From: Halorubrum lacusprofundi ATCC 49239
GTDB taxonomy: Archaea; Halobacteriota; Halobacteria; Halobacteriales; Haloferacaceae
Length of the DNA stretch: 64,000 nucleotides
Direction: 5' to 3'
Assembly: GCF_000022205.1 (NCBI RefSeq)
Contig: NC_012029.1
Span: 1,364,001 to 1,428,000 of the forward strand
In this document: positions 49,487-57,395 of the stretch, in pieces
How positions within the stretch are numbered: the stretch's first letter is position 1
Layout of the letters: each line of letters starts with the position of its first letter
Translations under genes and position numbers: made by a program
The notes under the pieces: model-generated
Databases searched by the model: none
What the model saw: the letters and a program-made list of their open reading frames with translations, nothing else
Told to the model about the DNA's origin: nothing

Positions 49487-51649
49487 CTAGGAGTGGGATC
49501 CGGTCCCGTTCAGTTGTCCCGAACTGCCGGTGATATCGGTGGTGGTCCGGTCCGGGGCACGCAACGCGACCGCGCACTGCTTGAGGTTCGGCTCGGCCGA
49601 CTCCGGGTCCGCGGCGGACAGCGTGAGTCGGTTCGCCGCCGGGTTGTGGACCGGGAGCCAGACGAGCCCCGGCGGCACGTGGGCGTCGGGCGCGACCCCG
49701 ACCGTCACCGCGGAGCGACGGGACTCGATCACCGTCTCTCCCCGGTCGAACGCCCGCAGGTTGTCGGCGATCGTCTCGGGGTGCATCCGCGCGGCCGTCG
49801 CGCTCCCGTCGTCGTCAGCGTCAGGCCGAGTCCGGACCCCGGTGTTGTACGCGTCCGGACGACGGCCGGTGGTGAGCGTGAGGGGGTACGCCTCGTCGAT
49901 CGGCTCCGGCACGCCCCGGTGAGACGCGTTCGAGAACCGCGCTCGGCCCGAGTCGGTCGGGAACGACCATCGGCCGTCCGCGTCGTCGGGGGTTGCGTCC
50001 CTGGCGTCTTCGGCGTCCGCGCCGTCCCCGTCGTAGTACCGGTACCCGCCCTCGCCGGTCTCGTCCGGGGCGGGCCACCGGACGGCCAGCTCCTCGGACA
50101 GCCGCTCGTAAGAGATCCCCGAGAGGTCGGCCGTCGTGCCGCGCGTCAGGGCGCTGACCTCGTCGAACAGCGCTTCGGGGTCGAGCCGCGTCGAATCGAA
50201 CAGATCCGAAACGACACGGTCGGCGACCGCGCCGATGATGTCCACGTCCTGCCGAACGTCGGCCGGCGGCTCGCGCGCCGCCGAGACTCGTGAGACACGC
50301 CGCTCCATGTTCATCACCGTCCCCTCGGACTCGCCCCACGTCGCCGCCGGCAACACCACGTCCGCCAGCTCGACGGTGTCGGAGCGGAACGCGTCTTGGA
50401 CGATCAGGAACGTGTCTTCGAGGGCGCTCTCGACGTGGTTCGCGTCGGGCATCCCCGCGACCGGGTTCGTCGCCACCGTCCAGCAGACGTCGACGTTGTC
50501 CCGCGCCAGCTCGTCGATGATCCGGACGAACCCCGGCCCGGACGAGTCGGGAAGCCGGCTCAGCGGAACGCCCCACGCGTTGGCGATAGCCTTGCGGTGA
50601 GCCGTGTCGTCGAACGGTCTGTATCCCGGCCACGACGACTTCGAGGCGCAGACGCGGTTCCCCATCGAGTTCGCCTGTCCGGTCAACGAGAAGGGGCCGC
50701 TGCCCGGTCCCAGGTTGCCGGTGGCCAGACAGAGGTCGATCAACGAGCGGGCGGTTCCGGTCCCCTGAACGCTCTGGTTGACCCCCATTCCCCAGTACAC
50801 GAGGGTCCGAGCGTCGAACGCCGCGGCCAGCTCGGAGACGCGCTCGACCGGGACACCGGCGGTCTCGGCCGCGACGTCGACGTCTGGCAGCGATCCGACC
50901 ATGGCCTCGAACCCCTCGGTGTGGTGTTCGATGAACTCGCGGTCGACGAGGCCGTCGTCGACGACCTGCGCGAGCACGGCTCGCGCCAGCGCCAGATCCG
51001 TCCCCGGCTCCGGGCTGACGTGCAGATCGGCGTCGGCCGCCGTCTCGCTTTCGACGGGGTCGACGACGATCAGTTCGCCGTCGTCCCCGCCCGCGCTGTC
51101 GGCGATCCTGCGATACAGCACGGGATGGGCGATCTTCGGATTCGCGCCCCAGATCACGTGGGTCTCGGCGTCGGGGATGTCGTCGTACGTCGGCGGCGGC
51201 GCGTCGCTCCCGAACGCCTGCACGTACGCCTGCACCGCCGAGGCCATACAGAGAGTGGTGTTGGCGTCGTAGTACCGGGTGCCGAAGCCGCCGCGCGCGA
51301 GCTTTCCCAGCGCGTACGCCGCCTCGTTCGTCTGCTGGCCGCTTCCCAGCACCGCGACGTTGTCGTTCCCGTTCCTGAGCGCCTCGATAATCCGCACCGA
51401 AACGGTCCCGAGAACGGTGTCCCAGTCGGTCGGCCGGAGCGTCCCGCCCCGGCGGATCAGCGGTTCGGTCACCCGCTCGCCGCTCGGGTCGATCGTCTCG
51501 CGGACCCCCCGACTGCAGGTCTTGCCCCCGTTCGTGGGGTGGTCGTCGTCGCCTCGAACGTCGAGGAACTCCCCGTCGTCGCCGGCGCGCTGTTGGTAGC
51601 CACAACCGACCGCGCACCGCATACAGGTTGTTGGCTCCCGATCAGTCAT
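49487..51649 (-). CDS. nasA: NasA-type assimilatory nitrate reductase, copy 1 (divergent)
   Basis: The 720-residue protein starts at ATG 51649. CMRCAVGC (residues 9-16) and CSRG supply the [4Fe-4S] ligands. The molybdenum-ligand cysteine lies in NTTLCMASAV (about 133). Molybdopterin contacts are VIWGANPKIAHPV, GMGVNQSVQGTGTA and SLTGQANSMGNRV. It reduces nitrate to nitrite for assimilation, with electrons probably from ferredoxin. The C-terminal domain (KQCAVALRAP) and an acidic loop insertion at about 575-600 are visible. It is a tandem paralogue of copy 2. Confidence 0.9.
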   Translation of the reverse strand: MTDREPTTCMRCAVGCGYQQRAGDDGEFLDVRGDDDHPTNGGKTCSRGVRETIDPSGERVTEPLIRRGGTLRPTDWDTVLGTVSVRIIEALRNGNDNVAVLGSGQQTNEAAYALGKLARGGFGTRYYDANTTLCMASAVQAYVQAFGSDAPPPTYDDIPDAETHVIWGANPKIAHPVLYRRIADSAGGDDGELIVVDPVESETAADADLHVSPEPGTDLALARAVLAQVVDDGLVDREFIEHHTEGFEAMVGSLPDVDVAAETAGVPVERVSELAAAFDARTLVYWGMGVNQSVQGTGTARSLIDLCLATGNLGPGSGPFSLTGQANSMGNRVCASKSSWPGYRPFDDTAHRKAIANAWGVPLSRLPDSSGPGFVRIIDELARDNVDVCWTVATNPVAGMPDANHVESALEDTFLIVQDAFRSDTVELADVVLPAATWGESEGTVMNMERRVSRVSAAREPPADVRQDVDIIGAVADRVVSDLFDSTRLDPEALFDEVSALTRGTTADLSGISYERLSEELAVRWPAPDETGEGGYRYYDGDGADAEDARDATPDDADGRWSFPTDSGRARFSNASHRGVPEPIDEAYPLTLTTGRRPDAYNTGVRTRPDADDDGSATAARMHPETIADNLRAFDRGETVIESRRSAVTVGVAPDAHVPPGLVWLPVHNPAANRLTLSAADPESAEPNLKQCAVALRAPDRTTTDITGSSGQLNGTGSHS

Positions 51650-51841
51650 TAGCGATTACAGTTCGATATTGTTCCAATACGAGTCATTTTTATATTCATT
51701 CGTGTGCTGTTCTCGGCTCAACTTGGCTCTCCGTTTTCTCTCATCCGGCATAATTCTTTTTTCGCATGAATAACCATGGAGTATACTGCGGTCGAGCCGG
51801 TCGTCGCTCTCCGAGTCCCGCGAGACGGCGGCGGCAGGCCA
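51650..51841. promoter_or_regulatory. promoter region between the two nasA copies
   Basis: A+T-rich sequence (CATTTTTATATTCATTCG, about 51687-51704) lies upstream of copy 1 on the reverse strand, so this copy can be transcribed from its own promoter rather than only by read-through from copy 2. No gene is seen. Confidence 0.5.
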
Positions 51842-53956
51842 TCAGTCGTCCGTCGGTGCGGGCTCGCCGTCCACGGTGGGCTGGCCCTCGTGGACCAACG
51901 GGTTCGACGGCTGCGGCGCCCGGACGTCGACCGCGCACTGCTTGAGGTTCGGCTCGTCTGACTCGGGATCGACGACGGGGAGCGTGAGGGCGTTCACGGC
52001 CGGGTGGTGGATCGGCAGCCACACCATCCCCTTCGGCACGCCGTCGTCCGGGTTGACCGCAATCGTCACCGACCCCCGCCGCGACGAGACGACCGTCTTC
52101 CCGCGATCGAACGACTCGATGTACTCCAGCGTCGTCTCCGGGTGGATCCGCGCCATCGGGGGGTCGTCGGTCCCGGTGCCGCGACTGCGGACGCCGGTGT
52201 TGTACGCGTCGGCCTGCCGGCCGGTCGTCAAGGTCAGCGGGAACTCGTCGTCGGTCGGCTCGGCGAGGCCGTCATGGGCCCCCGTCGAGAACCGAGCGCG
52301 ACCCGACGGCGTGGGGAACGACCAGCCGTCGTTGTCGACGTAGCGGTAGCCGCCCTCCGCTTCCGGTGACGGAGCCGGCCACCGGACCGCGCGCTCCGCC
52401 TCCAGCCGGTCGTACGAGATCCCCGACAGATCCGCTGGCGTCCCCGCGGTCAGCGCGCGCAGCTCGTCGAACACCGACTCCGGCGAGAGCGCGGGTCGGG
52501 GGAACAGCTCCCCGTCGATCGCGGCGCCGATCGCGACGATGATGTCGAGGTCCTGTTTGATCTTCGGGGAGGTCTCCGTGGCGGCGCGGACCCGCGATAT
52601 CCGGCGCTCCATGTTGGTGACGGTCCCCTCGGACTCGCCCCACGTCGCCGCCGGCAACACCACGTCCGCCAGCTCGACGGTCTCGGTCCGGAAGGCGTCC
52701 TGCGCGACGAGGAAGGCGTCGTCGAGCGCGCTTCTGACCTCGCTCGCGTCGGGCATCCCCGCGACCGGGTTCGTCGCCACCGTCCAGCACACCTCGGGCG
52801 GCCCGTCCGCGACGGCGTCGACGATCCCGACGGGTCCCGGACCCGGATCGTCCGGAAGTCGGCTTCGTGGAATCTCCCACTCGTCCGCGATGAACTGCCG
52901 CTCCTCCGGATCGGTGAACCCGCGTTGACCGGGCCACGTCCCCTTCGACGAGCAGACGCGGGTCCCCATCGAGTTCGCCTGCCCGGTCAGCGAGAACGGT
53001 CCGCTTCCCGGCCGGAGGTTCCCGGTCGCGAGACACAGGTCGATGAGCGCCCGCGAGGTCGCGGTCCCCTGCACGCTCTGGTTGACGCCCATCCCCCAGT
53101 ACACGAGCGCCGAGTCCGTCATGGCCTCGGCGACGCGCTCGACCGTCTCGACCGAGACGCCGGCGGTCTCCGCCGCCTCCCGTACCGAGGGCAACGAGTC
53201 GACCGTCGCCTCGAAGCCGGTCGTCGCCTCCGCGACGAACTCGCGGTCGACGGCGTCGTCGGCGACGGTCTGCGCTAACACCGCCCGGGCGAACGCCAGA
53301 TCGGTGCCGGGGTCGACCTGCGCGTGCAGGTCGGCGTCGTCGACGGTCTCGCTCTCGACGGGGTCGACGACGATCAGTTCGCTGTCGTCGTCGCTCGCGC
53401 TGTCGGCGATCCACCGGTACATCACGGGGTGCGCCACCGCGGGATTCGCGCCCCAGATCACGTGGGTCTCGGCGTCGGGGATGTCCTCGTAGGTCGGCGG
53501 CGGCGCGTCGCTCCCGAACGCCTGGTAGTAGGCGGTGACGGCCGAGGCCATACAGAGGGTGGTGTTGGCGTCGTAGTACCGGGTGCCGAAGCCGCCCCGC
53601 GCGAGCTTCCCCAGCGCGTACGCCGCCTCGTTCGTCTGCTGGCCGCTTCCCAGCACCGCGACGCCGTCCCTCGTTTCGGCCAGCGCGTCCTCGATATGCG
53701 AGACGACCGTCCCGATCGCCGTCTCCCAGCTCGTGGGGACGAGGGTGCCGTCCTCCCTGACGAGGGGCCGCGTCAGCCAGTCCCCGTCGGGGTCCGCGGT
53801 CTCGCTGACCCCGCGCTGGCAGGCGAGGCCGCGGTTGACCGGATGGGACGCGTCGCCTCGGACGGTGTCGAGTCCGTAGTTGTTGGTGTACCCCTGCTGG
53901 AGGTGACCGCACCCGACGGCACACCGCATACACGTCGTCGGCGTCCACTCGCTCAT
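51842..53956 (-). CDS. nasA: NasA-type assimilatory nitrate reductase, copy 2
   Basis: The 704-residue protein starts at ATG 53956. CMRCAVGCGHLQQG and ACQRGV form the [4Fe-4S] site. NTTLCMASAVTAYY gives the Mo-ligand Cys (about 134), and VIWGANPAVAHPV and SLTGQANSMGTRV follow. The sequence is closer to what I know of haloarchaeal NasA than copy 1, so this is probably the working parental form. It is divergent from nirA, the next enzyme of the pathway. A stretch of about 220 bases is nearly identical to copy 1. Confidence 0.92.
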   Translation of the reverse strand: MSEWTPTTCMRCAVGCGHLQQGYTNNYGLDTVRGDASHPVNRGLACQRGVSETADPDGDWLTRPLVREDGTLVPTSWETAIGTVVSHIEDALAETRDGVAVLGSGQQTNEAAYALGKLARGGFGTRYYDANTTLCMASAVTAYYQAFGSDAPPPTYEDIPDAETHVIWGANPAVAHPVMYRWIADSASDDDSELIVVDPVESETVDDADLHAQVDPGTDLAFARAVLAQTVADDAVDREFVAEATTGFEATVDSLPSVREAAETAGVSVETVERVAEAMTDSALVYWGMGVNQSVQGTATSRALIDLCLATGNLRPGSGPFSLTGQANSMGTRVCSSKGTWPGQRGFTDPEERQFIADEWEIPRSRLPDDPGPGPVGIVDAVADGPPEVCWTVATNPVAGMPDASEVRSALDDAFLVAQDAFRTETVELADVVLPAATWGESEGTVTNMERRISRVRAATETSPKIKQDLDIIVAIGAAIDGELFPRPALSPESVFDELRALTAGTPADLSGISYDRLEAERAVRWPAPSPEAEGGYRYVDNDGWSFPTPSGRARFSTGAHDGLAEPTDDEFPLTLTTGRQADAYNTGVRSRGTGTDDPPMARIHPETTLEYIESFDRGKTVVSSRRGSVTIAVNPDDGVPKGMVWLPIHHPAVNALTLPVVDPESDEPNLKQCAVDVRAPQPSNPLVHEGQPTVDGEPAPTDD

Positions 53957-54678
53957 CGGCGAACCGGCTCCTCCGTGGTGGTCCCGCGCCGCGCTGGAGC
54001 GATCGATCCGCCGGCGGTTCCGATCCGTGACCGGTCCGAAATAGGTGGCCCGCACACGTAGTGTCGCATCAGTTAGTTTCTGAATACAACATACCCGATC
54101 ATCGGTATAATTGTTTTGGTGTGTACAATATAACGAGATTAGAAAAATAACAGACGATTTTCTGGATTATTTCTAAATAAACACGCACACGCGATCGGCC
54201 AAGCGGGCGCCGTCGGCCAGGCACGTGCCGGCGCATACACACGCGGGAGTCCCGGCCGACCGATCTCGGACCGATCGACGCCGGATCCGACCAATTTCGG
54301 ACCCGATCGCTCCCGGACCCAACCGATCCCAGACGCGATAACCGTTCCCAGACGCGATCGACGACCGCGACACGCTCGCGGGGATCGCACCTCGAGCTGA
54401 CCGGGCAGTTCCGACCCACGCTCGTCCGCGACCGGCCATTTGCATTTGTGAACTTCTGGCTCGTTTCGCTACCACATATATAATTTCGTTTTTTGGAAAT
54501 GGAAATATAAGTCAGTCTGGCGACCGCCCTTTCGATCGCTTCGTTATCTCCTATATTTTGTGATTTTATAAAAGCCGAACTATTTTATGCAATCCTGTAA
54601 ACTTCTATCCGAGATGACCCACCATTCGGACAATATAGATGGAGAACGGTTCCACACCAACGACGAGGGTGATCGGTG
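53957..54678. promoter_or_regulatory. divergent nasA-nirA intergenic region with degenerate repeats
   Basis: About 720 bases without a supported gene. A+T-rich ends (54060-54180 and 54470-54600) fit promoters for the two divergent genes. The middle has loosely repeated blocks (GGACCGATCG; GGATCCGACC; CCCAGACGCGAT at 54331 and 54350). A nitrate or ammonium regulator could bind here; no defined operator is recognised. Confidence 0.5.
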
Positions 54679-56439
54679 ATGGCCAACAAAAAGGAGGACT
54701 GGAAATCGGAGATGTACGGCGACGAGGTTCGCGAGAAGCTACTGGAGTTCGCGGAGACGGGGTTCGAGTCGATCCCGGAAGACGAGCGGGACGCGTGGTT
54801 CACCCGGTTCAAGTTCTGGGGAGTGTTCCACCAGCGCTCGGGCCAAGAGGGCTACTTCATGATGCGGCTGACGAACGCCAACGGGATCTTGGAGCCCGGT
54901 CAGCTCCGCGCGATCGCCGAGGTCGCCCGCGACTACGCGTCCGGCCCGGTGTCGAACCCCGAGTTCGGCGACAGCTGGATCGATCTGACGACCCGCCAGT
55001 CCGTCCAGCTCCACTGGATCAAACTCGAAGACGTCCCGGAGATCTGGGAGAAGCTCGAATCGGTCGGCGTGACCACCCGGTCGTCGGGCGGCGACACGAT
55101 GCGGAACATCTCGGGCAGTCCGGTCGCCGGCAAGGACGCCGACGAGGTGATCGACACGCTCCCGCTGCTCGAACGGTTCCAAGAGGAGATCCGCGGCGAC
55201 GACGACCTCTGTAACATGCCCCGGAAGTTCAACATCAGCATCTCCGGGACGCCCGAGGGCGGCGCGCAGGACGCGATCAACGACATCGGACTCGAACCCG
55301 CGAAAAAAGAGATCGACAGCGGGGAGACGCTCGGCTTCAACGTGCGCGTCGGCGGCGGGCTCGGCGGGCGAGAGCCCCGCGTCGCCCGCCCGCTGGACGT
55401 GTTCGTGACCCCGGACGAGGCGTACGACGTCGTCCGCGGGTTCGTCGAATTGTACCACGACCACGGCGACCGGCAGGTCCGCGCGAAGAACCGCTCGCGC
55501 TTCTTCGTCGACGATCACGGCACCGAGTGGATCCGCGACCTGCTCGACGAGGAGTACGTCGACGCCGATCTGCGGACCGCCGGCGAGGACATCCGCGACG
55601 AGTACACGTACAACGCCGGTCGGACCACCGAGGACGGGAAGCAGGACTACACCGGCGTCCACGAGCAGAGCGACGGAAGGCGGTACGTGGGCCTCAGCGT
55701 CCCAGTCGGTCGGCTGCCGGCCGAGGAAGCGATCGAGCTCGCCGACCTCGCCGACGAGTACGGCTCCGGCGAGGTCCGGCTCACGCGCCGGCAGAACCCG
55801 ATCATCGTCGACGTGAACTCCGACCGCGTGGACGAGCTGCTCGCGGAGCCGCTGCTCGCGAAACACCGGCCCGAACCGAACCGGTTCGTCCGCGGGGCGA
55901 TGGCCTGTACCGGCACCGAGTTCTGCTCGATAGCGCTCGTCGAGACCAAGACCCGAATGGCGACGATGCTCCGCTGGCTCCGCGAGAACGTCGACCTGCC
56001 GGACGACGTCGACCAGCTCAAGATCCACTTCTCCGGCTGCACCGCCGACTGCGGACAGGCCAACACGGCGGACATCGGCCTGCTCGGCATGCGAGCGCGG
56101 AAGGACGGCGAGATGGTCGAGGCGGTCGACATCGGCGTCGGCGGCGGGATGGGCGAGGAGCCGTCCTTCGTCGACTACGTCCAACAGCGGGTGCCGGCCG
56201 ACGAGGCCCCCGGAGCGATCCGGAACCTGATCGAGGCGTTCGCGGAGCGCCGGGCGCCGGGCCAGACGTTCCGCGAGTGGGCGGACGCGACCGACACCGA
56301 GACGCTCGCGGCGCTGTGCGAGCCCGAGGAGACGGACTACGTCGACCCGTCGCTCACCGACGCGAAGCAGTCGTGGTACCCGTTCGCCGAGGAGGGGACG
56401 ACGGCGGCGAATCCGGAGGTGGCCTCCTCGGATGACTGA
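54679..56439 (+). CDS. nirA: ferredoxin-nitrite reductase
   Basis: The 586-residue protein starts at ATG 54679 (a GTG lies just before). Siroheme/[4Fe-4S] cysteines are CTGTEFC (about 411) and SGCTADCGQ (about 453). The two ferredoxin-like and nitrite/sulfite reductase repeats are seen: WGVFHQRSGQEGYFMMRL, LTTRQSVQLHWI, GGGLGGREPRVA and GRLPAEEAIELADLADEYGS. It reduces nitrite to ammonium in six electrons from ferredoxin. Together with the neighbouring narK and nasA genes it completes nitrate assimilation. Confidence 0.93.
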   Translation: MANKKEDWKSEMYGDEVREKLLEFAETGFESIPEDERDAWFTRFKFWGVFHQRSGQEGYFMMRLTNANGILEPGQLRAIAEVARDYASGPVSNPEFGDSWIDLTTRQSVQLHWIKLEDVPEIWEKLESVGVTTRSSGGDTMRNISGSPVAGKDADEVIDTLPLLERFQEEIRGDDDLCNMPRKFNISISGTPEGGAQDAINDIGLEPAKKEIDSGETLGFNVRVGGGLGGREPRVARPLDVFVTPDEAYDVVRGFVELYHDHGDRQVRAKNRSRFFVDDHGTEWIRDLLDEEYVDADLRTAGEDIRDEYTYNAGRTTEDGKQDYTGVHEQSDGRRYVGLSVPVGRLPAEEAIELADLADEYGSGEVRLTRRQNPIIVDVNSDRVDELLAEPLLAKHRPEPNRFVRGAMACTGTEFCSIALVETKTRMATMLRWLRENVDLPDDVDQLKIHFSGCTADCGQANTADIGLLGMRARKDGEMVEAVDIGVGGGMGEEPSFVDYVQQRVPADEAPGAIRNLIEAFAERRAPGQTFREWADATDTETLAALCEPEETDYVDPSLTDAKQSWYPFAEEGTTAANPEVASSDD

Positions 56440-56572
56440 TCGGATGAGCGGTCCGGCAGCGGACGACGCCGCGACCGCAGCCGAGGAGCCGGCGACCGTT
56501 ACTGAGGACCCCACGGACGACCGCGCGCAACACGCGTCGGCCGACGTGGCCCCGGAGCTCTTCGGCTGGTAA
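56432..56572 (+). CDS. 46-residue microprotein after nirA, ending ELFGW
   Basis: An ATG at 56432 lies within the last codons of nirA and overlaps its stop by 8 bases. The frame encodes MTDRMSGPAADDAATAAEEP, an acidic middle, and ends DVAPELFGW before TAA 56570-56572. The start overlap and the distinct aromatic C-terminus suggest a coupled small protein, perhaps an accessory peptide of the nitrite reductase. I recognise no family. Confidence 0.5.
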   Translation: MTDRMSGPAADDAATAAEEPATVTEDPTDDRAQHASADVAPELFGW

Positions 56573-56608
56573 TCTGCGGCGGCGCGGCCGCTGAGCGACT
56601 TCCACTCC

Positions 56609-57031
56609 CTGTACGACGAAATTCTGTTTCCGACCGACGGCAGCGAGGCATCGAAACGGACGTTTCCGCACGCGGTGAGTCAGGCGGAGGCCTTCGACGC
56701 GCGGGTCCACGTCCTCTACGTCGTGAACACGACGTACGCCGGCGTCGGCGCCGGCGGCAGCAAGAACGTCAACTCCCTCCGCGCCGAGGGCGAGGAGGTG
56801 ATCGAGGAGTTCGAACAACTGCTCCGCGACGAGGACGTTGATGTGGTCACGCGGATCGAAGAGGGAGACCCCCACACGAAGATCACGAAATACGCCGACG
56901 AGGAGACCGACATGATCGTCATGGGGACGCGAGGGCGCAGCGGGATCGAGAAGTACCTGCTCGGCAGCGTCACCGAGAAGGTCGTGCGGACCGCCGACGT
57001 GCCCGTGTTCACGGTGCGGACGCCGGAGTAG
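56609..57031 (+). CDS. universal stress protein (UspA) with no ordinary start codon
   Basis: The frame encodes LYDEILFPTDGSEASKRTFP, VHVLYVVNTTY, TRIEEGDPHTKITKYADEE, MIVMGTRGRSGIEKYLLGSV and VPVFTVRTPE, a complete UspA domain with the GxxGS-type ATP loop. The residue before YDEILFPTDGS is normally Met and is coded CTG here. No ATG, GTG or TTG occurs between the preceding in-frame TAA (56570-56572) and that point. Either CTG 56609 or 56591 starts it, or translation begins at GTG 56675 inside the fold, or the gene is broken. Confidence 0.7.
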   Translation: MYDEILFPTDGSEASKRTFPHAVSQAEAFDARVHVLYVVNTTYAGVGAGGSKNVNSLRAEGEEVIEEFEQLLRDEDVDVVTRIEEGDPHTKITKYADEETDMIVMGTRGRSGIEKYLLGSVTEKVVRTADVPVFTVRTPE

Positions 57032-57068
57032 TTCGGGGCCGTCGGTTCTCACGCCGGCCGGAAGGACC

Positions 57069-57395
57069 ATGTCGCTCCCCGCCGTCCGGCCGGGCATGAA
57101 CGAGCGGATCACGTCGGTGACCGCGTACACCACGCTGGATCTCGTCGACGGGGCGGCCCTCGGCCACGACTGGACCGAGAACGGGTCGGGCGTGTTGAAC
57201 GTCACCGCGTCCGACGAGAGACCCGATCGGGTCGAACTGCAGTTCGAGCTCGACGGCCTCGACGTCGAGCGCCTCCCCAACCACGCCGACCGGGTCGACC
57301 TCACGCCCGAGCAGGCCCGGACGGTCGCGGCCGCGCTGACGCGGTACGCGGACCGGATCGAAGCGGACGAGGGCGGAAACGCCGACTCCGACTGA
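57069..57395 (+). CDS. DUF6360 family protein
   Basis: The 108-residue protein starts at ATG 57069; ATG 57096 (MNERITSVTAY) gives the core length. Typical features are ITSVTAYTTLDLVDGAALGH, GVLNVTASDERPDRVELQFE, LDGLDVERLPNHADRVDLTP and EQARTVAAALTRYADRIE. The family is haloarchaeal with no known function. It lies 38 bases after the UspA gene. Confidence 0.78.
   Translation: MSLPAVRPGMNERITSVTAYTTLDLVDGAALGHDWTENGSGVLNVTASDERPDRVELQFELDGLDVERLPNHADRVDLTPEQARTVAAALTRYADRIEADEGGNADSD

Follow-up and report, generated by a model that had tools for sequence, protein, structure and literature searches.

How does a gene encoding a complete universal stress protein domain begin, when the codon at its start position is neither ATG, GTG nor TTG? 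The question is raised by a uspA-like gene of the Antarctic archaeon Halorubrum lacusprofundi ACAM 34, a strain with replicons of 2,735,295, 525,943 and 431,338 bases, 3,692,576 in sum (PMC5018182). We analysed a 64-kb stretch of its chromosome 1, called the window here, in which the gene and its neighbors are laid out as follows:

54679..56439, plus strand: nirA-type nitrite/sulfite reductase gene with NIR_SIR and NIR_SIR_ferr domains; the first start common to relatives is ATG 54679.
56432..56572, plus strand: microprotein gene, 46 aa; its ATG overlaps the end of nirA, its N-terminus is variable, and QHASADVAPELF near the C-terminus is invariant in 8 of 8 aligned copies.
56573..56608, plus strand: spacer of 36 nt from the microprotein TAA (56570-56572) to the UspA start position, with no canonical start.
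56609..56611, plus strand: CTG codon occupying the ancestral start position, where six orthologs have ATG and one has GTG.
56609..57031, plus strand: uspA-like gene, 140 codons plus TAG 57029-57031, with a complete Usp domain.
56675..56677, plus strand: GTG codon, the first canonical in-frame start; an internal Val, residue 23, so that a start there drops 22 residues including strand 1.
57069..57395, plus strand: DUF6360 gene, 3' of uspA.

Further upstream in the window, two neighboring minus-strand genes (49490-51655 and 51845-54166) cross-match, each aligning at roughly 70-76% DNA identity with the relatives' version of its neighbor, which suggests an old tandem duplication.

The initial annotation had described the UspA domain as complete, with CTG at the place of the normal ATG and the microprotein TAA in the same frame 36 bases upstream, and each of these points is borne out. 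The protein matches PF00582 over profile positions 2-141 of 141 (E 6.7e-33; 114.6 bits against a curated cut-off of 24), and its orthologs start at the codon aligned with the CTG. The ATP-binding Usp subtype carries the motif G-2x-G-9x-G-S/T, and residues 106-120, GTRGRSGIEKYLLGS, read G-2x-G-9x-G-S. The predicted model (mean pLDDT 86.2) alternates beta and alpha elements with a strand first, placing strands at 4-9, 32-40, 79-86, 102-107 and 133-137 and helices at 13-29, 54-74, 88-99 and 115-128, and the first strand leads into a PTDGS loop in which P8, T9, D10 and G11 are invariant in 20 of 20 aligned sequences. By sequence, the protein matches the ATP-binding UspA-type proteins MJ0577 (PDB 1mjh; E 1.3e-12) and PDB 3loq, a two-domain universal stress protein (E 1.9e-22), and shares their motif; compared with these ATP-binding UspA-type proteins, the window gene is unusual in its start codon only.

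No canonical start codon is available for the conserved UspA N-terminus. The UspA frame (56573-57031) holds no ATG, GTG or TTG ahead of GTG 56675, and between the microprotein TAA and that GTG the only in-frame starts under table 11 are CTG 56591, CTG 56609, ATT 56621 and CTG 56624. A scan of 56540-56659 found every frame free of ATG, GTG and TTG from 56547 to 56659, and slippage from an out-of-frame start was dropped on these grounds. An own promoter with a leaderless transcript was likewise set aside by a crude test, as only 4 of the 16 positions at -38 to -22 of CTG 56609 are A or T and no A+T-rich box is apparent.

Comparison across the genus indicates how this situation arose. A close ortholog (E <= 1e-45) is present in 8 of 52 Halorubrum genomes, that of H. 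lacusprofundi included, and all seven syntenic orthologs lie behind nirA and the microprotein and start at the codon aligned with CTG 56609, none of them with CTG. The start is ATG in H. halophilum, H. saccharovorum, H. sp. CSM-61, H. salipaludis, H. lipolyticum and H. alkaliphilum and GTG in H. sp. SD626R, and because six orthologs have ATG and one has GTG, the ATG-to-CTG change looks derived and specific to the H. lacusprofundi lineage. The loss of a normal start codon proposed in the initial annotation thus stands as a lineage event, and we do not extend this to its being recent. The clade's tree resolves poorly (supports 20-80), and we therefore claim no nearest sister species. A genome-contig scan, which may omit near records, listed no second H. 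lacusprofundi strain, and a pattern scan of viral contigs for other strains' copies returned no matches. A small tandem duplication is seen in H. salipaludis, where a short copy of the uspA tail comes directly after the gene's end (VRTPE stop FRTPE stop).

Wider sets of genes indicate that the missing canonical start is more than a chance finding. In every one of 72 homologous loci (76 found, less four C-terminal-only matches) an ATG, GTG or TTG lies in frame no further in than residue 3, with up to 60 codons upstream searched, and the residue-1 codon is ATG in 31, GTG in nine, another codon in 32 and CTG in none. Within the window, we scored 31 conserved coding stretches against four relatives, keeping those matched by two or more relatives with a synonymous share no lower than 0.55, a filter that uspA passes exactly at the threshold of 0.55. 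The first start column common to relatives, meaning that every matching relative has a start codon there, is a proxy that sometimes differs from the true start; at that column the window has ATG in 18 stretches, GTG in 11, TTG in one and CTG in one. The CTG case is uspA, the other 30 stretches carrying a canonical codon. The same genome yields 26 Usp matches, five of which were dropped as they begin within the domain; of the 20 other Usp N-termini, 17 have ATG at the match start or up to 13 codons upstream, the other three being downstream domains within longer frames. Elsewhere in the genome, two further Usp matches (C2:1977312-1977755 and C3:225377-225805) each contain one in-frame TGA, and are possibly broken copies or overrun alignments.

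The sequences show that the codon is derived, the frame is intact, selection has been purifying over the whole divergence, and the full domain has no canonical start. We modestly prefer the explanation that the CTG initiates weakly, so that full-length UspA would still be made at a reduced level, and give it an even chance of being right. Under this explanation, the ATG of a uspA gene behind nirA and the microprotein would have changed to CTG in the H. lacusprofundi lineage, the three genes would be carried on one transcript, initiator Met-tRNA would read CTG 56609 by de novo initiation, and translation would yield full-length UspA in smaller amounts. In favor of CTG use we count the seven orthologs that start at this position, the ATG and GTG codons found there among the 72 homologous loci, a low dN/dS, a frame free of stops, the intact motif and predicted fold, the HVO_1510 precedent described below, and a codon that mRNA folding leaves mostly unpaired (predicted pairing probabilities 0.06, 0.08 and 0.37). 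Against it we count the dispensability of the gene, the 36-nt gap, the rarity of such switches, and the lack of a common pattern in folding around the start across eight loci, the H. halophilum ATG being predicted to be mostly paired. The identity of the new codon adds a further consideration: under a simple weighting in which transitions count threefold, CTG makes up about 1 in 11 of the single-base outcomes of ATG that fall outside ATG, GTG and TTG, and since the change landed on the sole other NTG codon, kept function is mildly favored. A stronger version, in which the CTG of H. lacusprofundi is a working and deliberately weak UspA start, perhaps tuned to nitrogen through the nirA transcript, strikes us as doubtful.

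Losses of ATG to CTG have been observed in other genomes, in a count of AUG-to-CUG start switches that is reportedly the work of Belinky and colleagues. Across 36 genome triplets, two such switches are reported per 61,358 reconstructed AUG starts (PMC5622118). These belong to the same class of event, an ancestral AUG becoming CUG in one lineage, although they are genome-wide counts, whereas the Halorubrum uspA is a single case. Scaled to a genome of the size of H. lacusprofundi's, and depending on the divergence of the genomes in that paper, the rate amounts to roughly 0.12 switches. A comparable case is the HVO_1510 set of haloarchaeal leuA paralogs, for which the proposal is an atypical start, an in-frame CTG for instance, peptides of HVO_1510 having been seen upstream of its first alternative start, Met-93 (PMC8305020). 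In that set the N-terminal region is conserved, yet in four species the orthologs either have no canonical start to cover it or are disrupted, and the authors propose that translation begins at CTG or slips from an ATG in another frame (PMC8305020). Several genera are involved in the HVO_1510 set, whereas the uspA change concerns one species, is known from sequence alone, and has sister species with a plain ATG. For haloarchaeal plasmids, too, a CTG start has been raised as possible (PMC11431627), and CTG was assigned to 5% of unannotated small ORFs in Ribo-seq of Methanosarcina mazei (PMC11456600). A literature search made without the locus tag found nothing on this uspA gene, and searching the main text of three H. 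lacusprofundi papers turned up no mention of UspA.

The distance from the microprotein stop to the UspA start bears on how initiation could occur. The gap is 36 nt here, 45 in H. halophilum, 38 in H. saccharovorum, 25 in CSM-61, 41 in H. salipaludis, 38 in H. lipolyticum and +1 in SD626R, and the two genes overlap (TGATG) in H. alkaliphilum. Termination-reinitiation is expected where genes overlap or are separated by less than about 20 nt, and in Haloferax volcanii reinitiation is reported to cease or nearly cease in three gene pairs once the gap reaches 22-23 nt (PMC10666635). The 36-nt gap exceeds this working distance, and reinitiation at the CTG is therefore unlikely. Because Haloferax reinitiation all but vanishes at 22-23 nt, we confine coupling to H. 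alkaliphilum and SD626R, whose microprotein-uspA pairs may be coupled, and by the same analogy H. lacusprofundi and five close species, with gaps of 25-45 nt, probably need de novo initiation. The longest Shine-Dalgarno (SD) match ahead of CTG 56609 is 3 nt, and in haloarchaea such motifs reportedly play no part in de novo initiation (PMC6728339).

The most serious rival to CTG initiation holds that the ATG was destroyed and that uspA, with little translation left or none, is decaying; one relative already lacks the gene, and we regard this outcome as a real possibility, if the less probable one. In that relative, G031, nirA, the microprotein gene and the DUF6360 gene follow one another as in the window, with about 89-90% DNA identity around the site, where 17 bases replace the equivalent of window 56592-57051, leaving a clean empty site; no close uspA ortholog was found elsewhere in its genome. 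It is because G031 is cleanly without the gene at the same site that silencing after start loss must be taken seriously. With uspA so patchy, in 8 of 52 genomes, the gene is, by its distribution, dispensable in the genus. A spacer longer than the Haloferax reinitiation distance (PMC10666635), the lack of an SD motif or A+T-rich box before the CTG, and the annotation of this genome with 105 pseudogenes (PMC5018182) all fit decay as well. Against it, the frame has no stops in its 140 codons, the new codon is the remaining NTG rather than one of the commoner outcomes ACG or ATA, and dN/dS is low: values against the five closest species are 0.029-0.053 for dN and 0.18-0.25 for dS, a ratio of about 0.13-0.22. 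This low ratio spans the whole shared divergence, and so cannot date the start change. Codons altered in H. lacusprofundi alone, where the other five species agree, comprise two synonymous changes and one nonsynonymous change (R71L), and these three are too few to judge constraint after the start change.

A sequencing error at 56609 is improbable. The CTG is seen in one genome only, and the published error bound of less than 1 in 50,000 (PMC5018182) permits up to 0.024 A-to-C start errors per genome, yet the genome was sequenced by the Sanger method to 12.5x and finished quality (PMC5018182), and the published switch rate, although it depends on the divergence of the genomes in that paper, predicts about five times as many real changes as the error bound permits errors. 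The spacer just before the CTG differs from that of every relative, and the relatives also differ among themselves, which is neutral on this point. A shortened protein from GTG 56675 is less probable again. This GTG is the first canonical in-frame start, but the same codon is GTG in 4 of 4 relatives compared, whose start lies upstream, and in the predicted fold it falls within helix 13-29, so that a start there would remove strand 4-9 together with the PTDGS loop; we ruled it out on the predicted fold and because relatives keep this GTG as an internal codon. Least credible of all is the suggestion in the initial annotation that the TAA is read through to give a microprotein-UspA fusion, for although the two frames agree at this locus, separated by 12 sense codons, they do so at only 2 of 8 loci (H. 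lacusprofundi and H. halophilum), the other six being shifted or overlapping, the spacer is conserved in neither length nor sequence, and TAA is generally the least leaky stop; on this frame relation across orthologs we dropped the fusion as not a conserved feature, and the in-frame link at this locus, while real in the sequence, fits chance.

With the same gene at the same place and an ATG in five close sister species, the locus offers a clean comparison of start codons. If the CTG initiates, start-calling by ATG, GTG and TTG would miss or truncate genes of this kind, and if it works as a weak start, the natural swap against six ATG orthologs would gauge how haloarchaeal ribosomes handle CTG. 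If uspA is silent instead, the gene has been caught at an early step of loss. Non-canonical starts have been suggested in haloarchaea before, and worked cases may be few. The H. lacusprofundi uspA is a natural test case, a single-gene curiosity and not a new kind of system.

The microprotein upstream of uspA is one of a family that has QHASADVAPELF in common. Matches to it (E <= 0.01) occur in 37 of 52 Halorubrum genomes, and a sample of 59 genomes from the order has it in 22, spanning 7 of 29 genera. The window copy has no Pfam match at E 0.01, and neither of the two copies tested has an NCBIfam match at E 0.1. The second copy in the same genome (C2:857352-857429, within the region C2:854500-860500) is separated by about 600 bases from another nitrite/sulfite reductase-like gene in divergent orientation, which is followed by a DUF6360-like gene; this arrangement, in which both of these genes were identified by eye, echoes the neighborhood in the window.
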